A stretch of DNA of 64,000 bases from Pseudodesulfovibrio portus. Its GTDB lineage: Bacteria > Desulfobacterota > Desulfovibrionia > Desulfovibrionales > Desulfovibrionaceae. Every line of letters begins with the position of its first letter. The first letter of the stretch is position 1. The stretch lies in contig NZ_AP026708.1 in the NCBI RefSeq assembly GCF_026000375.1, forward strand, positions 2,454,001 through 2,518,000, written 5' to 3'. The notes below the pieces were generated by a model. That model was not told the DNA's origin, searched no databases, and saw only the letters and a list, made by a program, of their open reading frames with translations. This document shows, piece after piece, positions 49,750-62,527 of the stretch. A program made the translations under genes and the position numbers.

Positions 49750-49831
<82 letters not shown>

Positions 49832-49928: not shown

Positions 49929-50933
49929 TCATGCTGTTTTTACCTCCAATACCTTAAGGTGATCTCTCACCGAATCCAGGCCGCGCACGTATCGCTCGGT
50001 GATTCTCAGATTCTTATGTCTGAGCGTGTCCCGAATTGCGACCATTGGAACGTTGTGCTTGGCGAGTATTGAGGCTGTGAGTCCTCGAATGCCATGACAG
50101 CCAAACCGCTTTACCTCTGCTTTGTCGCATAAGGCTTGGGGGAATCCCCGGTTTTCTGTGTATGGCTTTCCTTGGTGCTGACCTTTGGGCTGGATGAACA
50201 CCCATTCATTAACCGCTGTTTTGCGGTGGGCTTTCAGGGTGTCGGTCAATTCCTCGGTCATTGGTATCCAATCGGATTCCAGCGAACCGCCTTTCCTTTT
50301 CCTTGTCTTGAGGCGGATTCGTTCGTTGATGAAATCCACGTCCTCCCATTGGAGTCTGTATATTTCACCGCGTCTGCCTGCTGTGTGTAGGAAGGTCAGT
50401 AGCATGACTTTGTCTTGGCCCTCGGCAACTCCGAGAACCTTTCTAAAGTCTGCTTCTGGCGGTACGTAATGGCCTTTCTCATCGGCAGGGAACTTGTCCA
50501 CCATTTCAAAAGGGTTTGGCTTTGGCATTTCAAGGTAACGGATTCCCCAGTTCCACGCGGCCACGAGGTTCTTGCGGTCTCGGTTGGCGGCGTTGCCCGT
50601 CCTTTTGTTGAATTCCTTTTGCAGGAACTCAAGGGCAAGGCGGGGTGTCATCTTGTCTGCCGTGGCTGATGGTTTGATGAATTGAAAAAAGCGCCGGAAG
50701 GCCCCGCGCTTTTCGCTGTATACTTTTGGTGAGAATCTTGTTGAGTAGTCTAGGTATTGTTCGGCCCACTTAAGCAAGGATGGAGTGGCGGTCAGGTCTC
50801 CCGCACTGTGCATCCCTGCTTCCCATGCCTTCGCATCCTTCTTGGAGTCGAATATCTTTTCCTTGCGTCGTCCGTTGATCATTACCGAACCGACCCAACG
50901 CTTCTTCCCGTTCTTTGTCTTTCTGTAGGGCAT
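49929..50933 (-). CDS. int: Tyrosine recombinase / integrase
   Basis: A 334-residue phage-type integrase. The N-terminal arm-binding domain (MPYRKTKNGKKRWVGSVMING, about 1-50) is followed by a SAM-like core-binding domain (50-150) and the catalytic domain with R187, H280, R283, H306 and nucleophile Y315 (ITERYVRG). It catalyses integration and excision at tRNA-Asp. It reads toward the tRNA, the usual arrangement. It overlaps the upstream HTH gene in another frame. Confidence 0.95.
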   Translation of the reverse strand: MPYRKTKNGKKRWVGSVMINGRRKEKIFDSKKDAKAWEAGMHSAGDLTATPSLLKWAEQYLDYSTRFSPKVYSEKRGAFRRFFQFIKPSATADKMTPRLALEFLQKEFNKRTGNAANRDRKNLVAAWNWGIRYLEMPKPNPFEMVDKFPADEKGHYVPPEADFRKVLGVAEGQDKVMLLTFLHTAGRRGEIYRLQWEDVDFINERIRLKTRKRKGGSLESDWIPMTEELTDTLKAHRKTAVNEWVFIQPKGQHQGKPYTENRGFPQALCDKAEVKRFGCHGIRGLTASILAKHNVPMVAIRDTLRHKNLRITERYVRGLDSVRDHLKVLEVKTA

Positions 50934-51175: not shown

Positions 51176-51658
51176 TTAGAGCGTTACTGCTGTGAGCGTG
51201 GTAGTCCCGATGTCTTTGAGCAGAGGCCCGTTGTCTGCCGCCATGCACGCCAGTTCGTCGGCGCGTTCATTGTCAGGGTGTCCGTTGTGGCCCCGTACCC
51301 ATGTCCATGTGACCTTATGTTTTTCAGTCAGAGGGATTAACTCTTCCCACAGATCGCGGTTCTTTACGGGCTTGCCGCTGGCGTTCTTCCACCCACGCTT
51401 AAGCCACCCTGCTATCCAGTTGTCCGTGAACGCTTTGCTCACGTATTGGGAGTCGGTGACAAGTTCAACTTGTGTGGGGGTAGTCAGGGCTTTAAGGCCA
51501 GCGATAGCAGCCCTAAGCTCCATCCTGTTGTTGGTCGTGTCCGCATAGCCTTGGGCATATTCGGCACGGGCTGAGCCGGAATCAATGATGACTCCATATC
51601 CTCCGGTTGCGTTGCCGTACTGATTCCCACGACATGCGCCGTCAGTATATATTTTCAT
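51176..51658 (-). CDS. rnhA: Ribonuclease HI
   Basis: A 160-residue RNase H. The catalytic carboxylates D6 (YTDGAC), E47 (NRMEL), D69 (TDS) and D134 are present, with H124 in GHNGHPDNERAD. It cuts RNA in RNA-DNA hybrids. Being on the element rather than the core, it may act in the element's own replication or be an acquired copy. A second, core rnhA is expected elsewhere. Confidence 0.95.
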   Translation of the reverse strand: MKIYTDGACRGNQYGNATGGYGVIIDSGSARAEYAQGYADTTNNRMELRAAIAGLKALTTPTQVELVTDSQYVSKAFTDNWIAGWLKRGWKNASGKPVKNRDLWEELIPLTEKHKVTWTWVRGHNGHPDNERADELACMAADNGPLLKDIGTTTLTAVTL

Positions 51659-51882: not shown

Positions 51883-53166
51883 TCACGCAGCGTGGGATAG
51901 GCTCGACTCTGATTTCAAATCATCACCGTTCAACCAGTCTTCCAGAAGCCCTCGCATCCTGGGGCTAGGGGCGAAGAGCTTGATAGGCTCCCCGTTCCTA
52001 ATGCGGCTCCTGAAAATCCACTGCAACATTTCGTTGAGGGCGAACCGGTCCCGGTCAAGGGGGAGGCCCCTTGATTTGAAGTATTGTTCCAACTCCAAGT
52101 TTGGGAACCGATTGGCCAGATAGAAAAGGACGCTCCTCTCCCCATGTCGATTTGTCGCTCTGGAATTACACGGCACAAAGTTGCAACGTCGCTTTCGTGC
52201 CTCGCTTGCTTCCGGCGGCACTGGTTTGCTTAGCACCATTTTTGAAGTCGCAATTTCTTTTGCGGGCTCCTTGAAAGAAGTCCACATGGCCTCTTTGGAC
52301 GTTACTTTGTGCTTGTTGCACAGCGTCTTAAGTGTCGCACTGACTTGCTTTATTCGTTTTTCTTTGTCTCGCATAAACCACGACCGTGAGAGTGCGTAGT
52401 CGTCAAGATCGGTTACCCATGGGGATTGTGAATCCATGAAGTTGATAAGGGCCTTGAACCTTGTTCGGCTCTCTGTGTCTAAGTCTGAGAAACGATTGTC
52501 TATGCGGTACTCAAGGGCTTGGAGACGCATATACGCATCCATTGGCGAGCCTTCAAACTGATATGTCAGGATGTAGACTTTGCTAAAGCAGGCAAAGGCT
52601 TTCGCCGGGAAGTGCCACGCGATGAAGCCGTCGCCCTTCTCCCTGTTGCGGGGGAGCCAGTACAAAGCCTCACAATCGCATTGCTTGCGGATACGATCAA
52701 ACTCCTCGTTACCCTCGGTGGAGGGGAAAGCGAAGGAGTCCCATGTTGCTTTCGCGGTTTCGGGACAGATGGAAACGCATTGAGTTTGCGCTATCAGTTG
52801 ACGGGCGATCGGAGAAACATACTCGATGCTTGAGCTTTCAAGCGTTTCATCAATCACCAGCGTATAGTCTTTCGAGTGTAAAAGGGTGATTAGTTCGTTG
52901 TCCATGAGCGAGAGCAGGGCGTGTGTGGTTGCAATGTTTGCATTACTATCCACCAGTTCCTTCAAGCCTTTTAGCTTTCTTCCGTCGAGGCTTTTGGGTT
53001 CTTTGAAGTCGTGCATTGGGCAGGCCAGCTTGATTCGCTCAACCTCATCAAGAAAGGGAGTGACGTAGATGTATCTCTGCATGACTCCCTTGTTTATCTC
53101 GTTGATTATGTGGGTAGTTTTACCTGCCCCCATGACTCCGTCGATGACTATTATGTCCGGTGGCAT
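51883..53166 (-). CDS. Helicase-like P-loop ATPase of phage type
   Basis: A 427-residue protein. Walker A is GVMGAGKTT (10-18), a YVTPFLDEVERI motif (34-45) resembles helicase motif Ia, and Walker B is VIDE (104-107) with a THALL motif between. These are the first motifs of a superfamily 2-like helicase or origin-melting protein; later helicase motifs are not clear. The last 180 residues are basic, with RKRRCNF and a long helix. It probably acts in replication of the element. Alternatives are a primase-associated or packaging-like ATPase. Confidence 0.65.
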   Translation of the reverse strand: MPPDIIVIDGVMGAGKTTHIINEINKGVMQRYIYVTPFLDEVERIKLACPMHDFKEPKSLDGRKLKGLKELVDSNANIATTHALLSLMDNELITLLHSKDYTLVIDETLESSSIEYVSPIARQLIAQTQCVSICPETAKATWDSFAFPSTEGNEEFDRIRKQCDCEALYWLPRNREKGDGFIAWHFPAKAFACFSKVYILTYQFEGSPMDAYMRLQALEYRIDNRFSDLDTESRTRFKALINFMDSQSPWVTDLDDYALSRSWFMRDKEKRIKQVSATLKTLCNKHKVTSKEAMWTSFKEPAKEIATSKMVLSKPVPPEASEARKRRCNFVPCNSRATNRHGERSVLFYLANRFPNLELEQYFKSRGLPLDRDRFALNEMLQWIFRSRIRNGEPIKLFAPSPRMRGLLEDWLNGDDLKSESSLSHAA

Positions 53167-53489: not shown

Positions 53490-54164
53490 TTACTCGCCGA
53501 GACGTTTCAAGAGGCGAGCCACACTTGTTGGGTGCCATTTGCCACCCCTCGGAGTTCTGATTCCTCTGGCTGTAAGTTCGGAAGCAATCCCTCTGACTGA
53601 GGTTATTCCGTTCTGTTGAATGTCTTCGATTATTTCTCGTAGGTCCTCTGCTCTTTCATGTGCTTCTTTTTTTATTTGCGTCACCGCTTCGGAGTTGCCC
53701 AACCCCTGCAAATATTTTGCGCCATGGGGATTTCCTAGCTTTACTCCCCGCGCCTTGGCTGCTGCTAGCGCCGCTTTAGTACGCTGAGATATCATCTTTC
53801 GTTCGTGTTGAGCCATTACCGCCATGATCTGAATGGTCATCTCGTTTGCTTCCGGCATGTCGGCACAAATGAAACTCACTCTGCTTTCTTGAAGCTCCAG
53901 TAGGAAGCGTGCATTTCGGCTAAGTCGATCAAGCTTGGCGATCACAAGGATTGCTCCTGTCACCTTGCAATGCTTGAGGGCTTTGCGAAGTTCTGGGCGA
54001 TTATCTTTCTTCCCGCTCTCCACCTCTACATATTCGTGGATTAGCTCATGCTGACCGCCATTAAGGTATTCGATGACGGCTGTCCTCTGCGCTTCCAAGC
54101 CCAATCCGCTTTTACCCTGCTTGGCAGTGCTCACTCTGAGATATGAAATAAACTTGTTGACCAT
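53490..54164 (-). CDS. Serine recombinase (resolvase/invertase family)
   Basis: A 224-residue small serine recombinase. The catalytic S12 and R10 are in SYLRVSTAKQ; the core has DRLSRNARFLLEL and MAQHERKMISQRTKAALAAAKARG. The C-terminal HTH (about 185-222, ITSVRGIASELTARGIRTPRGG) binds the site. It could resolve dimers or invert a segment. It lies upstream of the plus-strand cargo genes and is divergent from them. Together with the tyrosine integrase it gives the element two recombination systems. Confidence 0.93.
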   Translation of the reverse strand: MVNKFISYLRVSTAKQGKSGLGLEAQRTAVIEYLNGGQHELIHEYVEVESGKKDNRPELRKALKHCKVTGAILVIAKLDRLSRNARFLLELQESRVSFICADMPEANEMTIQIMAVMAQHERKMISQRTKAALAAAKARGVKLGNPHGAKYLQGLGNSEAVTQIKKEAHERAEDLREIIEDIQQNGITSVRGIASELTARGIRTPRGGKWHPTSVARLLKRLGE

Positions 54165-54381
54165 GCCTCACCCTAGCAGTATCAAATTCTTAAATCAAGG
54201 TTTAACTATTTGTGTACATCTCGGGAAGTCGGCATGCAAGCTCGTTTTTAGATTTTGAAGTTCGGCGGTAGGATATTAATTCATTGTTTGTAGTTGGTTG
54301 GTTGTGTTAATGATTGTAAACAAATGTTTAGATAGTTTGGTTAATACAAGAGCGCGTCGTTTGAACCCAAAGGAGGGGGCA

Positions 54382-54660
54382 ATGGCAGGTATCGTTTATA
54401 TTGCATATTTTGTGTTGGGTATTTTCCAACTAGCAGCGGTTTATGCGGGGTTAGATCAATGGCTGGGGTGGCATTTTATTATCCAGGGGCCATTGGCCCT
54501 TTTCCTGGCATACACTCCGGTCGTAGGAACTATTGTCGGATTCTTCGGGGCAATGAAGGGGTGGGGGTGGTCCTTTATTCAGGCAGGGCTTCTCTTTTTT
54601 GGGAGCTTCGGTTTGATGATTCTTTTCGCTTTCTTCATGCGTGAGAAAAACTACGGCTAG
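54382..54660 (+). CDS. Small membrane protein with three helices
   Basis: A 92-residue protein composed almost wholly of three membrane helices (about 3-25, 35-55, 65-88). The ATG at 54382 follows AAAGGAGGGGGC; the frame is open from 54298 but without a ribosome site. The next gene starts 6 bp after the stop, so these genes form an operon. The function is unknown. Confidence 0.7.
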   Translation: MAGIVYIAYFVLGIFQLAAVYAGLDQWLGWHFIIQGPLALFLAYTPVVGTIVGFFGAMKGWGWSFIQAGLLFFGSFGLMILFAFFMREKNYG

Positions 54661-54666
54661 TCTCAT

Positions 54667-54993
54667 ATGTCTAAATTGATTTGGCTCGTGCCAGCAGGGG
54701 CGCTTTTGTTGGCGTTGCTTCCTATGCCTTACGGTTATTATACCCTATTGCGCTTCATGGTTTGTTCCGCTGCCGGGTACCTGGCCTTGCGGCATCATCG
54801 CATAAGAGGCTTGGATTATTGGGTGGTTTGTTTTGGAGTAATGGCTGTTCTGTTCAATCCATTCGTGAAAGTAAATCTGGGCCGAGAGATTTGGGTCATT
54901 GTGGATTTGTTATGTGCCGTCTTGTTGGTGCTCAATATGAAGACTATGCGCAATGTTCTGTCTGGGTGGTCCCATGAAAGTGAGGAGGATTAG
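54667..54993 (+). CDS. DUF6804-like small membrane protein
   Basis: A 108-residue protein with four short hydrophobic helices and the text LPMPYGYYTLLRFMVCSAAGYLA and VLFNPFVKVNLGREIWVIVDL, which I recall from the DUF6804 family (from memory, not checked). It is second of four small genes. The function is unknown. Confidence 0.65.
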   Translation: MSKLIWLVPAGALLLALLPMPYGYYTLLRFMVCSAAGYLALRHHRIRGLDYWVVCFGVMAVLFNPFVKVNLGREIWVIVDLLCAVLLVLNMKTMRNVLSGWSHESEED

Positions 54994-55557
54994 TTGTTTA
55001 GGCTAGTCGCTAATATGCTGTTATCGTTTGTAGTTATGGCCGGGATGTCGGTTGGTTGTTTTGCGAGTGAGCAGATTGATAACGGTGTTGATTCAGGAGA
55101 GAGGGCTTCAAGCATTATCGAGGCTTTTGACGGGCTTTGTGTCCAATGCTCTGAACACTATGAAAATATTGACCATTTTATGGATTCTTTTGGTGGCAAA
55201 GAGGTCCCTCAAAACTTAACGAATTGGGACCCTGTGATGCGGGAGAATAACGGTAAGGCATTTCATTTCAAAAGTGACGAGGTGGAGTACATTGTAGCGT
55301 ATGTTAAAGGGGGCGGTTGTTCAGTCCTCGTTAAAGACCTTCCCCAAAAAGAAGTCTTGGAGATGATAAGGCAGCTTTACAAAGCCAAGCAAGCGGGAGT
55401 CTTGGAGTCTGGGATTCAGAAGCAAATAGCGTACAATGTTGGTTTGAAGGGGTATGAAGGGGCTGTCATCATTGTAACGGTAAAGAAGGCTGGCACTGGC
55501 AACGAAGGTGGAATTGGATTTGTCTCAAGTTCGGCGATGGCGAAGATTCAACAGTAG
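54994..55557 (+). CDS. Secreted protein, 187 residues, TTG start
   Basis: A signal peptide (about 1-24, ending CFA) is followed by a domain with four Cys (C48, C51, C105 and others) and text ALL-x-KGGGCSVLVKD seen in the NMCC_0638-like family (tentative). TTG at 54994 directly follows the upstream stop, with GAGGAGG placed 5 bases before it, so it is the likely start. It is third in the operon. The role is unknown. Confidence 0.65.
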   Translation: MFRLVANMLLSFVVMAGMSVGCFASEQIDNGVDSGERASSIIEAFDGLCVQCSEHYENIDHFMDSFGGKEVPQNLTNWDPVMRENNGKAFHFKSDEVEYIVAYVKGGGCSVLVKDLPQKEVLEMIRQLYKAKQAGVLESGIQKQIAYNVGLKGYEGAVIIVTVKKAGTGNEGGIGFVSSSAMAKIQQ

Positions 55558-55608
55558 TCGCGTACGTTTATGTTTTAAATCTGTTTGAGGACTAAAGGCC
55601 GTCTAGCT

Positions 55609-55992
55609 ATGAAAAATATTTTGTTTGTTATTGTTATTATTTTTTGTGGAGCCACTTCCACATATGCGGGGTGCAATGAGTATTCTCTAAAGGGTGAGTC
55701 TGCGATGCCCGTTTATGAAATATGTACCCCATTAGGGCACTGTGAAAAGGCTAAGTTAGAAATCGAGTGCGGCAACATCTATTCAAGCTTTTTGGTCTTC
55801 ACCAATGGAATGAGATGGAATTATACCAGTGATCTAAGCGATTCTGGAGAGTCTGTAACTGTTGAGAAATTGGTATTTGATACCAATTCAGGAACGAATA
55901 GTTACATGACGCTATGCACTGGCAGTACTAACGAGTGCTCTGAGTGGACTTACAAAGAGATTGAATCTAGTGCTGTTGAGAAGAGCCAGTAG
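55609..55992 (+). CDS. Small secreted cysteine-rich protein
   Basis: A 127-residue protein: signal peptide (about 1-21, ending YAG) then about eight cysteines in a compact domain, likely disulfide-bonded in the periplasm. No family is recognised. The ribosome site is weak; the ATG at 55609 is chosen because it begins the signal peptide. It lies 51 bp after the previous gene and 90 bp before the large STAND gene. Confidence 0.6.
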   Translation: MKNILFVIVIIFCGATSTYAGCNEYSLKGESAMPVYEICTPLGHCEKAKLEIECGNIYSSFLVFTNGMRWNYTSDLSDSGESVTVEKLVFDTNSGTNSYMTLCTGSTNECSEWTYKEIESSAVEKSQ

Positions 55993-56081
55993 TCTTCGTA
56001 TAATAATATCAAGGTTTTTGGCGAGGTGTTTGCCTTAGCTCGCCATAATTATGCCCACTATATATTGCATGGGAGTCAGTA

Positions 56082-59000
56082 ATGCCAATGCCATTTGAAG
56101 TTGATTCTGAGATGATTAAGTCTCTTGATGCCGTAGAGCTTGTAGAGTTGGTGAGGCGTTTGCTTCACGCGGAGGCACGTTCTAACGGTATATTACTAGG
56201 AGGAATTCATGTTCCTTGCGAAATCAACATTCCGGATGGTGGTGAGGATGCGCGGATAAAATGGGGGGATGGCCCAGAGAAAACAGACTATTTGCCCCAC
56301 CGCAACTGCGTTATCCAAATAAAGGCCACGATCATGCAGCCGTCAGATTGTAAGAAAGAGGTCAAAGTTAAAGGCGGCGATGATATATTAAATGAAGCCA
56401 TGGCAGAGGTTTTGAATGAAGGCCATGCCTACATAATAATATGTAACGAAACCGCCGTTGGGCAAAAGTTGGCGAGAAGGCAAAAGGCGATACGAGACGG
56501 TATTACTGAATGTGATGAAGATTGGCGCAAAGCAGCAGCACTTGATTTTTATGATGCAACAAAGCTTGCAGATTGGAGCAACTTGTACCCCACAGTCGCG
56601 TTGTGGCTGTTTGAATTAAAGAAGAGAATTTCTCTTGGCGGATATCAGACTTGGGCAGAGTGGGCAGATGATTCGGGTGCTGAGAATTATTCATTTGAAG
56701 GGGACGACAGCCCCCGTGTTGTGAGGACGCTTAAAGATCAGAATGAAGCTTTGGCCATTGGCGAGGCTTTTCAAGAGTTGCGAGATCATTTGGCTTCACC
56801 TAGGCAGTGCTCTCGTCTTGTGGGATTGTCCGGTCTTGGCAAGACACGTTTGATTTTGGAAGCGTTCAAGGCAGATGATAGTCTGGATGGAAGAGCTCGG
56901 TCAGAACAAGCCTTGTATGTAAACTACCAAGTCGTAAGAGATGAGGTTGTTCGAACGGCTATGTCCTTGCGAGATATAGGGGCTGACTGTGTGTACATTG
57001 TTGATGAGTGTCCACTACCTGTCCATAACGCTCTATATGATCTGATTTCTGCAAACAAGAGTCGGATGCGGTTGGTGACGATAGACCACGATGCCGCCGA
57101 CACTGCTAATAAGACATTGTTTTATAAAGCTTTGCCAGCGAGTGATTCAGTGATTGAAGCGATACTTCAACAGAGATACCCCTATATGGGCGAGAAAGAT
57201 TTGAAGAGGGTGGTCAAGTTCGCTGAGGGCTATCCGGGCATGGCTGTTTTGTTTGGTGATTACTTGGTTGATGGCGGTGCAGGAATCTCAGAGCTACAAG
57301 ACGATGAGATGGTTTGGAAAATAGTCCGGCAGCGTAAAGGGGAAGACGCTGCTGCTGAGTGGACTTTGGGAGTGCTCTCTTTGTTTCAACATATTGGAGT
57401 TGACGGGGCAGGCCCTCGTAAACAGCTAGATGCTGTTGCTGAGGTTTTCAAAATTGATCCAGAGATTGCTTATCGCCATGCCGCTGAATGGACTGCCCGT
57501 GAAGTGCTGCAACGGCAAGGAGATTATGGGCAAGTTCGGCCACACCCCATTGCCAATAGGTTAGCGAGAGATGTTGTTGACCGTACCCCTACAGATACTT
57601 TTGCAAAGTTTTTTACGAAAGATTTTCCCCAATCTTTAACAACGGGGTTCTGTCGCCGACTTGCTGGCCTGGGGGAGCACGGGAAGTCTCTCGCGGTAGC
57701 TGAAAAGTTACTGTTTGATGCCTCAATCCTCGGCTCTTTTGAAGCCTTGAACTCAGAGGTCGGAGCAAAGTCTTTTTATTACCTAGTTGAAATTGTTCCC
57801 GAAGCGGCTTCAAGAATCCTTGAGCATGTCTTTGAAGGTCTGTCGATTGATGACTTGTTTTCGTTCAAGGACGGTCGGCGATACATGGTTTGGGCTTTAG
57901 AAAAACTGGCCTTTAGAAAAGATTATTTTGAGCCAGCAGCAACAATGATGATGAAGCTCGGCGCGGCTGAGGTCGAGACTGGTATCGGTAACAACGCCTT
58001 TAATCAATTTAAGAATTTTTATCAGTGTTATTTATCGGGAACAGAGGCCCCTCCGGAAGAGCGGCTGTTGGTTGCTGATAGTGGCTTAGGGATGGGCGAC
58101 GAACGTGTGAGGGACGTTTGTATCGAAGCCTTATGTCACGGATTAACGTCTTGGCATTTTAGTCGTATGGGCGGGGCAGAGGAACAGGCAGGACAAAAGG
58201 CGTTAGTAGATTGGCAGCCAAAAACCCATGTTGAGCTTGTGGGGCATTTTGTTGGGATATTGGACCGTCTTCAACCGTTGGCGGTACGAAAGGACAGCGT
58301 GGGAGAAAGTGTCAGGGGTAGAGTGGCAGGCCAGATACGGGGCTTGATTCGAAACGGTGTGTTTGACCCTGTGGAGCAGTTTGTCGTGGCTGTCTGCAAA
58401 GAGGTTGGGTTTTGGCCTGATTGTGTAAAAGCGATAGCGGACTGGCTGTATTACAATGCTGAGGATAGCGATGGAGACTTGGTTGAAAGGGTTAAAATCC
58501 TTCATGGGCAACTTGGGCCTGATTCGCTTGAAAGCAGACTTGAATACTTTGTCTTGCAAAAGCCTTGGGGGATTCATGACCCCAATGTCCCGTACGATAA
58601 AGATGGCGATGTGCTTGCTGGTGAAAAGTATGCTGAGGTTATGGCCCAATCCATCGCTGAAGAATGGAAGGCAAAGGAGTTAGGACTTGGGTGGATACTT
58701 GAGAGACTTTTATACTCTGATGCAGGGAATGTTGTTTCGTTTATGCGCAAGGTGGGCGAGCTAAGTGATTCACTTGAGAGCGACATTTTTGAAGTAATTA
58801 AAGCCGCAGAAAAAGGGGGGATTGAGCATTTAAATGATGGAGTATTGAAAGGTTTGATTTACGCAAACCAGGATATGGACCTGCATGCCCGAATTCTAGA
58901 CAGAGTTTTTGAGTCGGAAGTATTGATTGCTTTTTTGCCCTTGTTCAGCGTCATAAAAGATATGACAGACAGCGACATCGATCGGATAGTGGCGTCTTTA

Positions 59001-59930
59001 AAAAAAGACTACGACCCTTGGGCGTTCGCTTATCTCGGAATGGGAAGAAGTCTCGATACTGTTAGCAGGGGCAAGGTTGCAGAATTGCTAGTTGCTTTAT
59101 CGGAAAGGGGTAGCCGTGAAAAGTGGCAGGCTATAGATATTTTAAGTCTGTATCTACATGGTGAAAAATATATCCCAGATGAGTTGTTGGCTACGGCAAA
59201 GGCACTAACAATTAGCCCGGAATTATTTTCTGAAAAGGTCGACAGCCATGACCGGCACTATTCTTATGAGCGAGTTGCTATCAAAGCAGCTTTGACAGGG
59301 CGTGATGAAGGCTTTGTTGTTCAGTTGGTTGAAATAATTGTGAATACAGTTTCTGGCGATAGGATATTCCATCATGATGTCGATCACACCTTTAGAGAAA
59401 TTATTAAGTCTTTAATAGCCGACTACCCTGAGCAGGTGTGGGGACCAATCCAAAAATATGTACTAGATGATGGGCGGCGTTTTAGGATGGGACTTGAGAT
59501 GATGTTGTCTGACTATGGAAGCAGGGGGCCACTCTCAGCTAAGATATTGTTTGATCTTCCTCATGATATGCTTCTTAGGTGGGCAATGGAGTATCCTGAA
59601 GTCGGGCCAGAGTTCTTGCTAGATATAGCACCGATCTTACAGAAGGATGAAAATGAGAAATATGAGTGGAGTGATTTTGTCGCTAAAATGTTAGATGCCT
59701 TCCCGGATAATAATGGTTTCCTGAGCACGTTGGCGAACAAGTGTGTTCCTTCGTCATGGAGCGGTTCGATAGTGCCGCACATGGAACGGGCCCAAGGGGT
59801 TATTAGTACTTGCCTCGACCATCCTCACCCAAATGTTAGACGTTGGGCTGCACAAGAGGTTCGTTTGCTCAATCGGAGAATTAGTAGGTGGGCGAAAGAT
59901 GAGGCTGAAAGGAACATGTTATATAGCTAG
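56082..59930 (+). CDS. Large STAND/NACHT-like ATPase with N-terminal nuclease-like domain (candidate defence protein)
   Basis: A 1282-residue protein in three parts. Residues 1-180 resemble a restriction-endonuclease-like (PD-(D/E)xK, Mrr/Cap4 type) domain: GGEDARI with D56 and VIQIKAT with Q79-x-K81. Residues about 235-480 form a STAND-like ATPase with Walker A GLSGLGKT (248-255) and Walker B VYIVDE (304-309). The remaining 800 residues are helical and end in HEAT-like text (HPNVRRWAAQEV). This layout matches Avs/NLR-like anti-phage proteins, where the C-terminus senses a phage product and the nuclease destroys DNA. The ribosome site is GGGAGTC. It is cargo of the tRNA-Asp element. Confidence 0.75.
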   Translation: MPMPFEVDSEMIKSLDAVELVELVRRLLHAEARSNGILLGGIHVPCEINIPDGGEDARIKWGDGPEKTDYLPHRNCVIQIKATIMQPSDCKKEVKVKGGDDILNEAMAEVLNEGHAYIIICNETAVGQKLARRQKAIRDGITECDEDWRKAAALDFYDATKLADWSNLYPTVALWLFELKKRISLGGYQTWAEWADDSGAENYSFEGDDSPRVVRTLKDQNEALAIGEAFQELRDHLASPRQCSRLVGLSGLGKTRLILEAFKADDSLDGRARSEQALYVNYQVVRDEVVRTAMSLRDIGADCVYIVDECPLPVHNALYDLISANKSRMRLVTIDHDAADTANKTLFYKALPASDSVIEAILQQRYPYMGEKDLKRVVKFAEGYPGMAVLFGDYLVDGGAGISELQDDEMVWKIVRQRKGEDAAAEWTLGVLSLFQHIGVDGAGPRKQLDAVAEVFKIDPEIAYRHAAEWTAREVLQRQGDYGQVRPHPIANRLARDVVDRTPTDTFAKFFTKDFPQSLTTGFCRRLAGLGEHGKSLAVAEKLLFDASILGSFEALNSEVGAKSFYYLVEIVPEAASRILEHVFEGLSIDDLFSFKDGRRYMVWALEKLAFRKDYFEPAATMMMKLGAAEVETGIGNNAFNQFKNFYQCYLSGTEAPPEERLLVADSGLGMGDERVRDVCIEALCHGLTSWHFSRMGGAEEQAGQKALVDWQPKTHVELVGHFVGILDRLQPLAVRKDSVGESVRGRVAGQIRGLIRNGVFDPVEQFVVAVCKEVGFWPDCVKAIADWLYYNAEDSDGDLVERVKILHGQLGPDSLESRLEYFVLQKPWGIHDPNVPYDKDGDVLAGEKYAEVMAQSIAEEWKAKELGLGWILERLLYSDAGNVVSFMRKVGELSDSLESDIFEVIKAAEKGGIEHLNDGVLKGLIYANQDMDLHARILDRVFESEVLIAFLPLFSVIKDMTDSDIDRIVASLKKDYDPWAFAYLGMGRSLDTVSRGKVAELLVALSERGSREKWQAIDILSLYLHGEKYIPDELLATAKALTISPELFSEKVDSHDRHYSYERVAIKAALTGRDEGFVVQLVEIIVNTVSGDRIFHHDVDHTFREIIKSLIADYPEQVWGPIQKYVLDDGRRFRMGLEMMLSDYGSRGPLSAKILFDLPHDMLLRWAMEYPEVGPEFLLDIAPILQKDENEKYEWSDFVAKMLDAFPDNNGFLSTLANKCVPSSWSGSIVPHMERAQGVISTCLDHPHPNVRRWAAQEVRLLNRRISRWAKDEAERNMLYS

Positions 59931-60037: not shown

Positions 60038-60088
60038 CCTGTCACGCCGGAGGCCGCGAGTTCGAGTCTCGTCGGCTCCGCCACTAAA
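60038..60088 (+). repeat. attR: 51-bp direct repeat of tRNA-Asp 3' end
   Basis: Identical to 49781-49831. It lacks the 5' half of tRNA-Asp, so it is only a remnant and not a second functional tRNA. Confidence 0.95.
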
Positions 60089-60193: not shown

Positions 60194-62527
60194 CTATGGT
60201 ACGATGTTTACACTAGTTAATAACGCTTCGTACTGGTCTGGGTCTTTACATTTAATTGTATCAAGTACATAAAGCGCAGACTTTTTCATTTCAGGTATGT
60301 CAATAGGGGTTGTGCTTCTGTCAAAGATTTCCTCTAGGTGTGAGTATTCATTAATGACCCTGTTGACCAGTTTTGTTGACTGGTGATCCCCGTCAAAGAA
60401 CCTATCGATCTTATTAATTACCTTTGTTTGATTCGGATACTTATAAAACAAGTAGGCTTCTAAGAACTTTCTTAGGTTGTTACCGAAGCTGTAATAGTAG
60501 TCAAAAGTGTCTTCCCCATTTGGTTTTGGGTGTGCACACTTGTAAATGACACTAAAGAGGTAGTTGAATTCTGTTATGTATTTTTTGAGATGGGATGGCA
60601 TTGGTCGAAGTCTAGCGCACTTACTGTCATTTTCAATAATAAAAAAGTTCGCTTTCTTCTCTTTGTTGGCCCATGTTAATCTCTTAAGATATTTAAGAAA
60701 CTCAAGGTTGTGGGTAGAGATAAACAATTGCTCATAGTTTTGGTTTTTTGCCAGAGCATTTTCGATAAGGCTAAAAGTAAAAAATACATGGTTGTTATCT
60801 AAGCTAGAGATTGGATCGTCTATCCATATGATAGAATTTTTACTTTCAAACCCTGCTTCTTGAAGTTTTGCGATGAAATAGCAAAAGGCCACTAGGCTGC
60901 ACTCGCCTTCACTGAGGTTGTGAGCTTTTTCTTCTCCTCGTTTAAGTACGAACCTAGAACCAGTTTCATCTTTTTCAGATGAGAGGGTTAGTGCGTCATG
61001 TCCAAAGAAATGCCGTAAATAGTTATTTACTTCCTCAGCTCCTTTCGTCTCGTCGCTTAGTTCACTTTTTAATGTCCTTATTTCTAATCGTTTTCTTTCG
61101 ATTAAGTTGATTAGTGTATCCCTCTCTTCTTTTAAGGAGTCTCGATTTTTGTTTTGGTCGAGTATGTTTTGCTTCTCTTTATCGTAATCTATTGTCGAGA
61201 GTAAGGTTTGAACGGTGTGTAGTCTCAAAGATTGCCTAGCTTGAACCTTCTCTTCATCAATTTTAGAGGTTAGCAGGTTGTTTTGTTCTATGCTTTTGTT
61301 AATATTTTCTATAGCAATGACGATCTTGTCTGCATTATCATAATTGTTGTCATAGGTCGTGGTTGCAAAGATGTTGTTGAGCCGTTTGTTTATAGCTTTT
61401 TTTAGTTTGTTTAGATTCTTTTTGTACTCGCTAATGAAGTTGTTAGCTTCATCTTGTTGAGAGTATATTTGCTTTCTTAATTGTGAGTATATCGATGCAT
61501 CGGGGACAACTACTTTTGATTTGAAAAGATCGATCTCGTTATCAACATGTTCGATTTCAGTTTGTAATTCTTTCCTGAGGGTTTCAGATTCCTTGTTGAA
61601 GTGAGCATCTATCTTTTCCCACAAACCACTCGGTATCTCATTGCCACAGAAAGCACATAGATTGCGTTTTCCCCTATGCAACTGCGATCCTTTCCTTACC
61701 CACTCTTGCAGGTTAGGGTCTTCGAGTAGTTCCTTAATTGTTTTTGAGGGAGAGATTTCTTTAGTAAGAAGGTTCGTCGCGGATTCTACTAGCTTCTCAT
61801 AGTTAGGAATTACGACCCTTCTTGGTTCAATGTTAGGTCTAACAGTTTCGTTGATGGTTTGCTGATGTTTGACCTGCTCTTCCTCCGTGAGAGTATATTT
61901 TTTGCCGTGAACCTTTCGAATATCGGTTTTGATCGAAGCAATGTTATATGTCGGTACATTATACCTAACAGAGTTGTTTTTGATTTCTCGAGCTTGATCT
62001 CTGAGCTTTCCTTCAAGGTTCTTCTCGGTTTTATCTGCTAGAGTTTTTTGGGATAGGTAGCGCTTGTGGGTCTCTTCACTTTCCTTTGTTAGACCAGACT
62101 TTTCATTTCCGATTTCATTTTCTAAAGTCTTAACCTTCTTCTCAATTTCAATGTTCTTAGAACCAACAATTGCAAACGGTTGGATGTTGCCATCTTTATC
62201 TTGCAGCCACTTAAGATTGTCTTTGACGAAGTCAGAGTTGTACACTCTAACGTCAACATCGATATCTTCTAAGTCGTCCTGACAAAAGGATCCGCAGGTC
62301 GAGTGCTCTATGTCGAATTTGGCATTCAGATAGTCCTCGTGAACTGATTTTTGTTTAATCGACCTGAGGATTCTAGATAGGGTGGTTTTCCCAGAGTAGT
62401 TCCGTCCGTAGATGATGTTCAGTTTGTTAAACTCGATGATGTTATCATCTTGATCTTTTACTGTCGTATCCCAATTGAACTTCGAAAATGGACCAAAGTC
62501 GCAAACATTAGATATCTTTGAAATCAT
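60194..62527 (-). CDS. RloC/PrrC-like ATPase with zinc hook and HEPN-type RNase motif
   Basis: A 777-residue AAA_13-type protein. Walker A is GRNYSGKT (41-48), the ABC-like signature is LSEGE (538-542) and Walker B is SIIWIDDPISSLD (565-577). Two coiled-coil arms (about 125-190 and 310-500) flank a zinc-hook CxxC (C291, C294). The C-terminus has R686..E690 and RVINEYSH (R723-x6-H730), like the anticodon-nuclease catalytic set of PrrC/RloC. It probably cleaves tRNA when phage DNA damage is sensed. It lies outside attR but is equally AT-rich. The ribosome site is weak. Confidence 0.8.
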   Translation of the reverse strand: MISKISNVCDFGPFSKFNWDTTVKDQDDNIIEFNKLNIIYGRNYSGKTTLSRILRSIKQKSVHEDYLNAKFDIEHSTCGSFCQDDLEDIDVDVRVYNSDFVKDNLKWLQDKDGNIQPFAIVGSKNIEIEKKVKTLENEIGNEKSGLTKESEETHKRYLSQKTLADKTEKNLEGKLRDQAREIKNNSVRYNVPTYNIASIKTDIRKVHGKKYTLTEEEQVKHQQTINETVRPNIEPRRVVIPNYEKLVESATNLLTKEISPSKTIKELLEDPNLQEWVRKGSQLHRGKRNLCAFCGNEIPSGLWEKIDAHFNKESETLRKELQTEIEHVDNEIDLFKSKVVVPDASIYSQLRKQIYSQQDEANNFISEYKKNLNKLKKAINKRLNNIFATTTYDNNYDNADKIVIAIENINKSIEQNNLLTSKIDEEKVQARQSLRLHTVQTLLSTIDYDKEKQNILDQNKNRDSLKEERDTLINLIERKRLEIRTLKSELSDETKGAEEVNNYLRHFFGHDALTLSSEKDETGSRFVLKRGEEKAHNLSEGECSLVAFCYFIAKLQEAGFESKNSIIWIDDPISSLDNNHVFFTFSLIENALAKNQNYEQLFISTHNLEFLKYLKRLTWANKEKKANFFIIENDSKCARLRPMPSHLKKYITEFNYLFSVIYKCAHPKPNGEDTFDYYYSFGNNLRKFLEAYLFYKYPNQTKVINKIDRFFDGDHQSTKLVNRVINEYSHLEEIFDRSTTPIDIPEMKKSALYVLDTIKCKDPDQYEALLTSVNIVP

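Follow-up and report, generated by a model that had tools for sequence, protein, structure and literature searches.

The window analysed here, a stretch of 64,000 nucleotides of Pseudodesulfovibrio portus (contig NZ_AP026708.1, positions 2,454,001 to 2,518,000), contains an intact open reading frame (ORF) at 56082–59930 (+), with an ATG start, 1282 codons and 1282 encoded amino acids. Its product is probably a one-protein, NLR-like anti-phage nuclease defence, a reading to which we assign a probability of roughly 0.68. Computed support comes from the integrity of the gene, the domain order, invariant active-site and P-loop residues, and STAND- and HEAT-like fold similarity, and further from homology to PD-Lambda-4_A, the absence of a detected B partner, and the location in a mobile element at a tRNA hot spot. 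Nucleotide switching, oligomerization, DNA as the substrate, a phage ligand, and cell death are what we infer for this protein. Judged from its sequence, it is a distant relative of the A component of the anti-phage system PD-lambda-4, with no partner found. The PD-Lambda-4_A family is known; the branch to which the window protein belongs, its lack of B, and its trigger were not found described.

Relation to PD-Lambda-4_A and the B partner

The window protein matched the PADLOC model PD-Lambda-4_A (PDLC03991) over its full length (396.7 bits, E 5.2e-119, protein residues 5–1277, profile positions 4–1270 of 1283). The 1283-amino-acid PD-Lambda-4_A of E. coli R32_14_1F scored 2532 bits over 1283/1283 positions of the same model, and BLASTP aligned the two proteins with 24% identity over 1315 columns (E 2e-66). 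In this E. coli strain, an intact PD-Lambda-4_B gene follows 45 bp after the A gene, and an integrase and ssrA (tmRNA) are present on the PD-Lambda-4 stretch, with one other gene between.

Scans of Pfam and NCBIfam gave nothing above cut-off, which includes housekeeping families. The Avs models of PADLOC and NCBIfam gave no match up to E 1, in searches run without a positive control, and neither did the Pfam models NACHT and DUF4297 up to the same E-value; PADLOC and NCBIfam presumably contain Avs models, and Pfam presumably those of NACHT and DUF4297. Membership of these three groups was therefore rejected for want of a model match at E 1. The sequence-only reading had proposed a candidate new Avs/NLR-like gene whose C-terminus did not seem to match an Avs family. 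The protein indeed gave no Avs, NACHT, or DUF4297 match up to E 1 and the NLR-like layout is supported, but the family is not new, because homology to PD-Lambda-4_A spans the entire protein.

A review (PMC10952713, in part) attributes PD-lambda-4 to Vassallo et al. 2022, and its domain table lists the system under P-loop NTPases and not under PD-(D/E)xK nucleases. A genome survey also names it in a table (PMC13268207). In the selection of Vassallo et al., each system lowered the plating of its selecting phage (PMC9519451, in part); the name PD-lambda-4 does not occur in the text of that paper. A further paper, as far as its accessible part goes, is about another ATPase (PMC12724215). No description of a solo branch, of a missing B, or of a trigger was found among titles and the beginnings of abstracts, with thin coverage of subscription journals.

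Relatives were collected from several sources. When genome contigs were scanned with the single protein, no relative emerged (28 stretches tested); a profile-guided scan based on an alignment of eight sequences yielded 69 loci. By tblastn, 43/72,556 plasmid records matched, 30 of them with at least 80% query coverage, and 0/50,697 phage records did; a profile-guided pattern scan of viral contigs gave no relative either. Within the class of the host, matches occurred in 9/348 genomes, three of which matched only weakly and one only in pieces, and the single match among the 36 genomes of the genus was the host itself. In E. coli, a near-identical A was present in 151/5426 genomes, with coverage of 80% or more in 131 of them, and B was present in 149/5426, with such coverage in 145, the two counts not being paired genome by genome.

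Sixty-four of the 84 ORFs listed were aligned with the window protein to give 65 rows. The 20 left outside comprised 13 fragments or cut frames, five copies or near-copies (L019, L052, L055, L060, and L062), and the full-length L018 and L036. For the tree, L036 and the E. coli protein took the places of L039 and L057. The resulting 65 rows cover eight named bacterial groups, including Pseudomonadota, Cyanobacteriota, Bacteroidota, and Bacillota. With full support, 57 rows including the window protein were separated from eight rows, which comprise E. coli, an Enterobacter, a Burkholderia, and a Sphingobium plasmid, and four genomes of the host's family. The window protein stands alone on a long branch, and its nearest relative is 31% identical. 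As this was a quick tree with SH-aLRT support only and a midpoint root, it does not give the age order of the two sides.

PD-Lambda-4_B (PDLC03992, 303 amino acids) had no match in the host genome or in any of 57 searched genomes or records with A relatives (10 of them plasmid records only). The same search was positive in the E. coli control, and E. coli was the only species seen with both A and B. Apart from E. coli itself, the smaller branch of the tree has seven rows; all of them were searched, three in the form of plasmid records only, and none yielded B, so that the B gene may have been gained late and in a single lineage, many of the searched assemblies being drafts. Some E. coli records annotate PD-Lambda-4_B as two pieces (L092, 9898–10810); in others the copies are intact.

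Putative nuclease head, ATPase, and helical arm

The putative nuclease domain occupies approximately residues 1–200 (56082–56681, +). Within it, D52 and D56 of the DGGED motif (residues 52–56, 56235–56249, +) are putative metal ligands, and QIK (residues 79–81, 56316–56324, +) represents a Q-x-K form of the (D/E)xK motif. In 65/65 aligned rows D52, G54, D56, Q79, K81, Y117, and W165 are identical, as are R245, G248, G251, G253, K254, R256, D308, C310, and G383 further downstream; G53, E93, and W1167 (64/65 each), E31 (63/65), and P385 (57/65) are nearly so. The DGGxD count is partly a result of selection, because one of the two scan patterns contained DGG[EQ]D; in the 15 rows found without this pattern, D52, G53, G54, D56, Q79, and K81 were likewise invariant.

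The AlphaFold model of residues 1–216 (mean pLDDT 86.0) shows helices, strands, helices, a strand, a helix, a strand, and helices in this order, which fits PD-(D/E)xK. The best two Foldseek matches were the restriction endonucleases MspJI (E 0.02) and EcoO109I (E 0.03), both of which we take to be PD-(D/E)xK folds; third came a chain of the Hachiman defence system (E 0.09), with nuclease and helicase subunits not distinguished. The head is likely a PD-(D/E)xK-type nuclease, a call that leans on the invariant residues more than on the weak structure matches. Of the earlier claim of a PD-(D/E)xK-like nuclease, the residues (D56 and Q79-x-K81) hold well, and the fold has weak support (best E 0.02).

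STAND proteins combine a P-loop, a Walker B aspartate, a GxP motif, a winged-helix region, and a repeat arm. In the window protein, Walker A is GLSGLGKT (residues 248–255, 56823–56846, +) and the Walker B region is VYIVDEC (residues 304–310, 56991–57011, +), with D308-x-C310 conserved. Residue 309 is variable (E in 24/65 rows, N in 22/65, G in 11/65), so that no conserved glutamate follows D308. The G-x-P motif lies at residues 383–385 (57228–57236, +), the repeat arm was found, and the winged-helix region was placed by position only. D56, Q79, K81, Walker A, and a Walker B that begins at residue 304 and includes D308 and E309 all lie where the sequence-only reading had put them.

From approximately residue 521 to the end at 1282, the protein is predicted to form a helical superhelix of about 760 residues, a putative sensor (57642–59927, +; AlphaFold and Foldseek). 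The model of residues 196–1282, built like that of the head from 52 of the 64 aligned relatives (those from genome contigs) and the window protein (53 sequences), reached a mean pLDDT of 87.7 and a pTM of 0.72 and consists of a P-loop module followed by helical repeats. Foldseek returned 168/1476 matches at E 0.001, headed by a STAND-TPR protein (6mfv) and NOD2 (5irm), after which came karyopherins (importins, CRM1), CAND1, and other HEAT proteins; the plant NLRs WRR4A (rank 37) and NRC1 (rank 48) were among the 50 matches listed. TM-scores over the query were low (0.10–0.30 in the rows listed), so these matches are to be read at the level of the fold class only. The models support membership of the STAND NTPase superfamily with a HEAT-like superhelix. 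Invariant residues, AlphaFold, and Foldseek together support the predicted layout of nuclease, STAND module, and long helical arm. As for the HEAT-like C-terminus, it is nearly all helical in the model and resembles HEAT proteins by fold, but the Pfam HEAT match by sequence (E 0.14) stayed below cut-off.

Conservation differs along the protein. Averaged over the 64 other rows, identity to the window protein amounts to 0.37 in the head (1–200), 0.26 in 210–345, 0.24 in 346–520, and 0.30 in the proximal arm (521–760); the two segments of the distal arm reach 0.19 and 0.21. For the 76 pairs with 60–90% overall identity, the distal arm was again lowest (0.65–0.66 vs 0.77 for the head), as it was in all four identity bins. 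A least-conserved distal arm is as expected of what may be a diversifying sensor. By contrast, residues 597–656 (57870–58049) of the proximal arm are, against expectation, as conserved as the Walker A region and among the best conserved parts, and may form a contact surface or bind a ligand. Three loci of the host's family (L007, L008, and L009) have frames of 1378–1401 amino acids with a different N-terminus and share only regions within positions 532–921 of the family profile (E 1e-13 to 1e-15, in a small set), which hints that the proximal arm may be a module used by more than one family. By eye, L007 has no obvious P-loop.

Mobile element and gene neighbourhood

A perfect 51-bp repeat bounds a 10.26-kb element whose last cargo is the STAND gene, in line with the earlier suggestion of a mobile element. 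The left copy (attL, 49781–49831, +) coincides with the 3' end of tRNA-Asp (49750–49826) and extends five bases beyond it; the right copy (attR, 60038–60088, +) is 100% identical and begins 107 bp after the stop codon of the STAND gene. Searches with the att core gave these two copies and no third. A tyrosine integrase (49929–50933, −; Pfam Phage_integrase, E 3.9e-17) lies just inside the left end, and the G+C content of the element is 0.43–0.52 vs approximately 0.60 outside on the left.

The left flank was matched in 36/36 genomes of the genus, in some only over the tRNA sequence, and the right flank in 20/36, in some only over short stretches. In six relatives the two flanks shared a contig and an orientation and were no more than 40 kb apart; their spacing was approximately 0.3 kb in a nearly empty site (G032), 13 kb in G006, 22 kb in G030, 35 kb in G022, and 38–39 kb in G005 and G007, compared to 13–14 kb in the window. 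In the remaining genomes the flanks were split between contigs, widely separated, or differently oriented, or one match was missing. The proposed tRNA hot spot is supported by this variable spacing between the same flanks, a measure of insert size.

Besides the integrase, the element carries an RNase HI-like gene (51176–51658, −) and a P-loop-like protein without a Pfam family (51883–53166, −), both recognized by eye, and a serine resolvase (53490–54164, −; Pfam). Four small genes in a row (54298–55992, +) precede the STAND gene, one of which contains DUF6804 (Pfam). None of them matches PADLOC, and the one at 54994–55557 was found in 1/348 genomes of the class, namely its own, with no match in the 347 others. 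A sigma-70-like promoter, TTGAGA-17-TATAAT (55976–56004, +), with 11/12 consensus matches, suggests that the STAND gene may have its own expression despite the small genes close upstream; it is a consensus match only, in a region with 12 promoter-like sites vs a mean of 8.8 in shuffles.

Neighbours of the relatives were sampled as 150 of 175 collected ORFs, from 42/52 full-length genome-contig loci. The most frequent of 343 matching PADLOC models, among the 25 models listed, matched three of the 150 ORFs, and the largest similarity cluster spanned two loci; no recurring neighbour took the place of B among these 150. As none of the four upstream genes matches PADLOC, the one searched in the class was confined to its own genome, and no neighbour recurred among those examined, a conserved operon partner was rejected. 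In keeping with a defence role, Septu (PtuA, PtuB) and Pycsar (PycC) proteins occur among the neighbours. Annotations at most 5 kb from other relatives include AbiE, a gene associated with DNA phosphorothioation, a CBASS effector, and an Abi gene.

Just outside attR lies an AAA_13 ATPase gene (60194–62527, −) with a G+C content of approximately 0.38, which matched the PADLOC candidate PDC-S06 (E 5e-274) and, more weakly, PrrC (E 9e-15). It is probably a second, separate defence insert and was set aside because it lies outside attR.

Proposed mechanism, alternatives, and comparison with known systems

STAND defences are described as having a sensor at the C-terminus, a switch in the centre, and an effector at the N-terminus (PMC12931631, PMC12169576, both in part), and given the shared layout, the window protein should behave like them. 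At rest, the STAND module would hold ADP, with the nuclease heads apart and inactive. Upon infection, the HEAT-like arm (approximately residues 521–1282), most likely its variable distal part, would bind a phage-derived ligand; exchange of ADP for ATP and oligomerization would follow, the PD-(D/E)xK heads would be brought together and cut DNA, and the phage would be stopped, probably at the cost of the cell. By analogy, the trigger may be a phage protein, as for Avs1–4, or, as with bNACHT25, a host process that has been disturbed. The phage target could be a new one.

Several observations weigh against this proposal. None of the 403 Foldseek matches of the head reached E 0.001, unrelated proteins (ORC, EF-Tu) appeared from rank 4 on (E 0.1–0.2), and the head model is poor at residues 51–53 (pLDDT <50). 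ORC, an AAA+ protein but no STAND receptor, also matched the ATPase-arm model (ranks 8 and 38), and as the two halves were modelled separately, contacts between head and arm and oligomers are not visible. Sequence searches of the PDB gave nothing with the window protein (phmmer) or with the nuclease-head profile, and two chance-level matches with the arm profile. The conserved residues 597–656 are not predicted by a pure variable-sensor view, and the defence genes near relatives were counted without a control region. Finally, the nearest member of a tested system that was compared is only 24% identical and has the B partner not found here, and we know of no experiment on the window protein or its branch.

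An unlikely alternative is that the same protein, with the same output, senses phages indirectly, its arm guarding a host protein or process that the phage disturbs. The NACHT nuclease bNACHT25 is a precedent, as it needs host DnaJ and the phage coat protein did not co-precipitate with it (PMC12169576, in part). The family-wide conservation of residues 597–656 is what a host-facing surface might show, but the most variable part is the distal arm, and across eight bacterial groups a common host partner would have to be very conserved.

We consider it improbable that the nuclease recognizes foreign or modified DNA directly, as in restriction, with the ATPase gating the cut and immunity achieved without cell death. 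MspJI is the top match of the head (E 0.02), and 7/11 systems of the E. coli selection with DNA-binding or cleavage components gave direct immunity (PMC9519451, in part). However, the similarity to MspJI is weak, and the ATPase-arm half finds its best matches among STAND receptors and HEAT proteins. Equally improbable is that the element uses the protein to fight competing mobile elements or plasmids instead of lytic phages. Such a role would suit a gene that is the last cargo of an integrative element, where the inserts at the site vary in size, and a family with relatives on plasmids (43/72,556 records), but PD-lambda systems came from a phage selection (PMC9519451, in part), and with no relative in 50,697 phage records or in the pattern scan of viral contigs it gains no direct support. 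A STAND regulator with no role in defence, although the best single fold match is a STAND-TPR protein, is very improbable in view of the invariant nuclease-type residues and the lack of a housekeeping family at the Pfam and NCBIfam cut-offs.

With the one-protein defence as the preferred reading, a broader and more tentative proposal, on balance doubtful, concerns the whole 57-row branch. It could represent a widespread single-gene family of NLR-like nucleases with its own class of phage ligand, neither terminase nor portal, and the two-gene PD-lambda-4 of E. coli would then be a special case that arose late, when an accessory B joined a receptor that had ancestrally been solo. If true, the two-gene defence of E. 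coli is one tip of a broad one-gene NLR-like family, which any search rule that requires B would overlook, and the family offers a direct route for seeking a further conserved phage pattern sensed by bacteria.

Among the known systems, bNACHT nucleases such as bNACHT25 share the tripartite logic and a DNase head (PMC12169576, in part); the window protein differs from them in lacking a Pfam NACHT match at E 1. Avs1–Avs4 (AVAST) unite a nuclease effector, a central STAND ATPase, and a long C-terminal sensor in one protein, and their nucleases respond to a phage protein, namely terminase, portal, or another one (PMC12931631, in part). In contrast to them, the window protein matched no Avs model at E 1, and no entry with Avs in its title was among the 50 fold matches listed. 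PD-Lambda-4 (PADLOC PDLC03989-03992) differs by its B gene, with none found in the genome of the window protein, and its E. coli A protein is 24% identical and lies on the opposite side of a fully supported branch of the tree. The two large proteins (1282 amino acids in the window and 1283 in E. coli) are nevertheless homologous over their full length, and each has an integrase and an RNA gene close to its coding sequence, the RNA being tmRNA in E. coli R32_14_1F and tRNA-Asp in the window.

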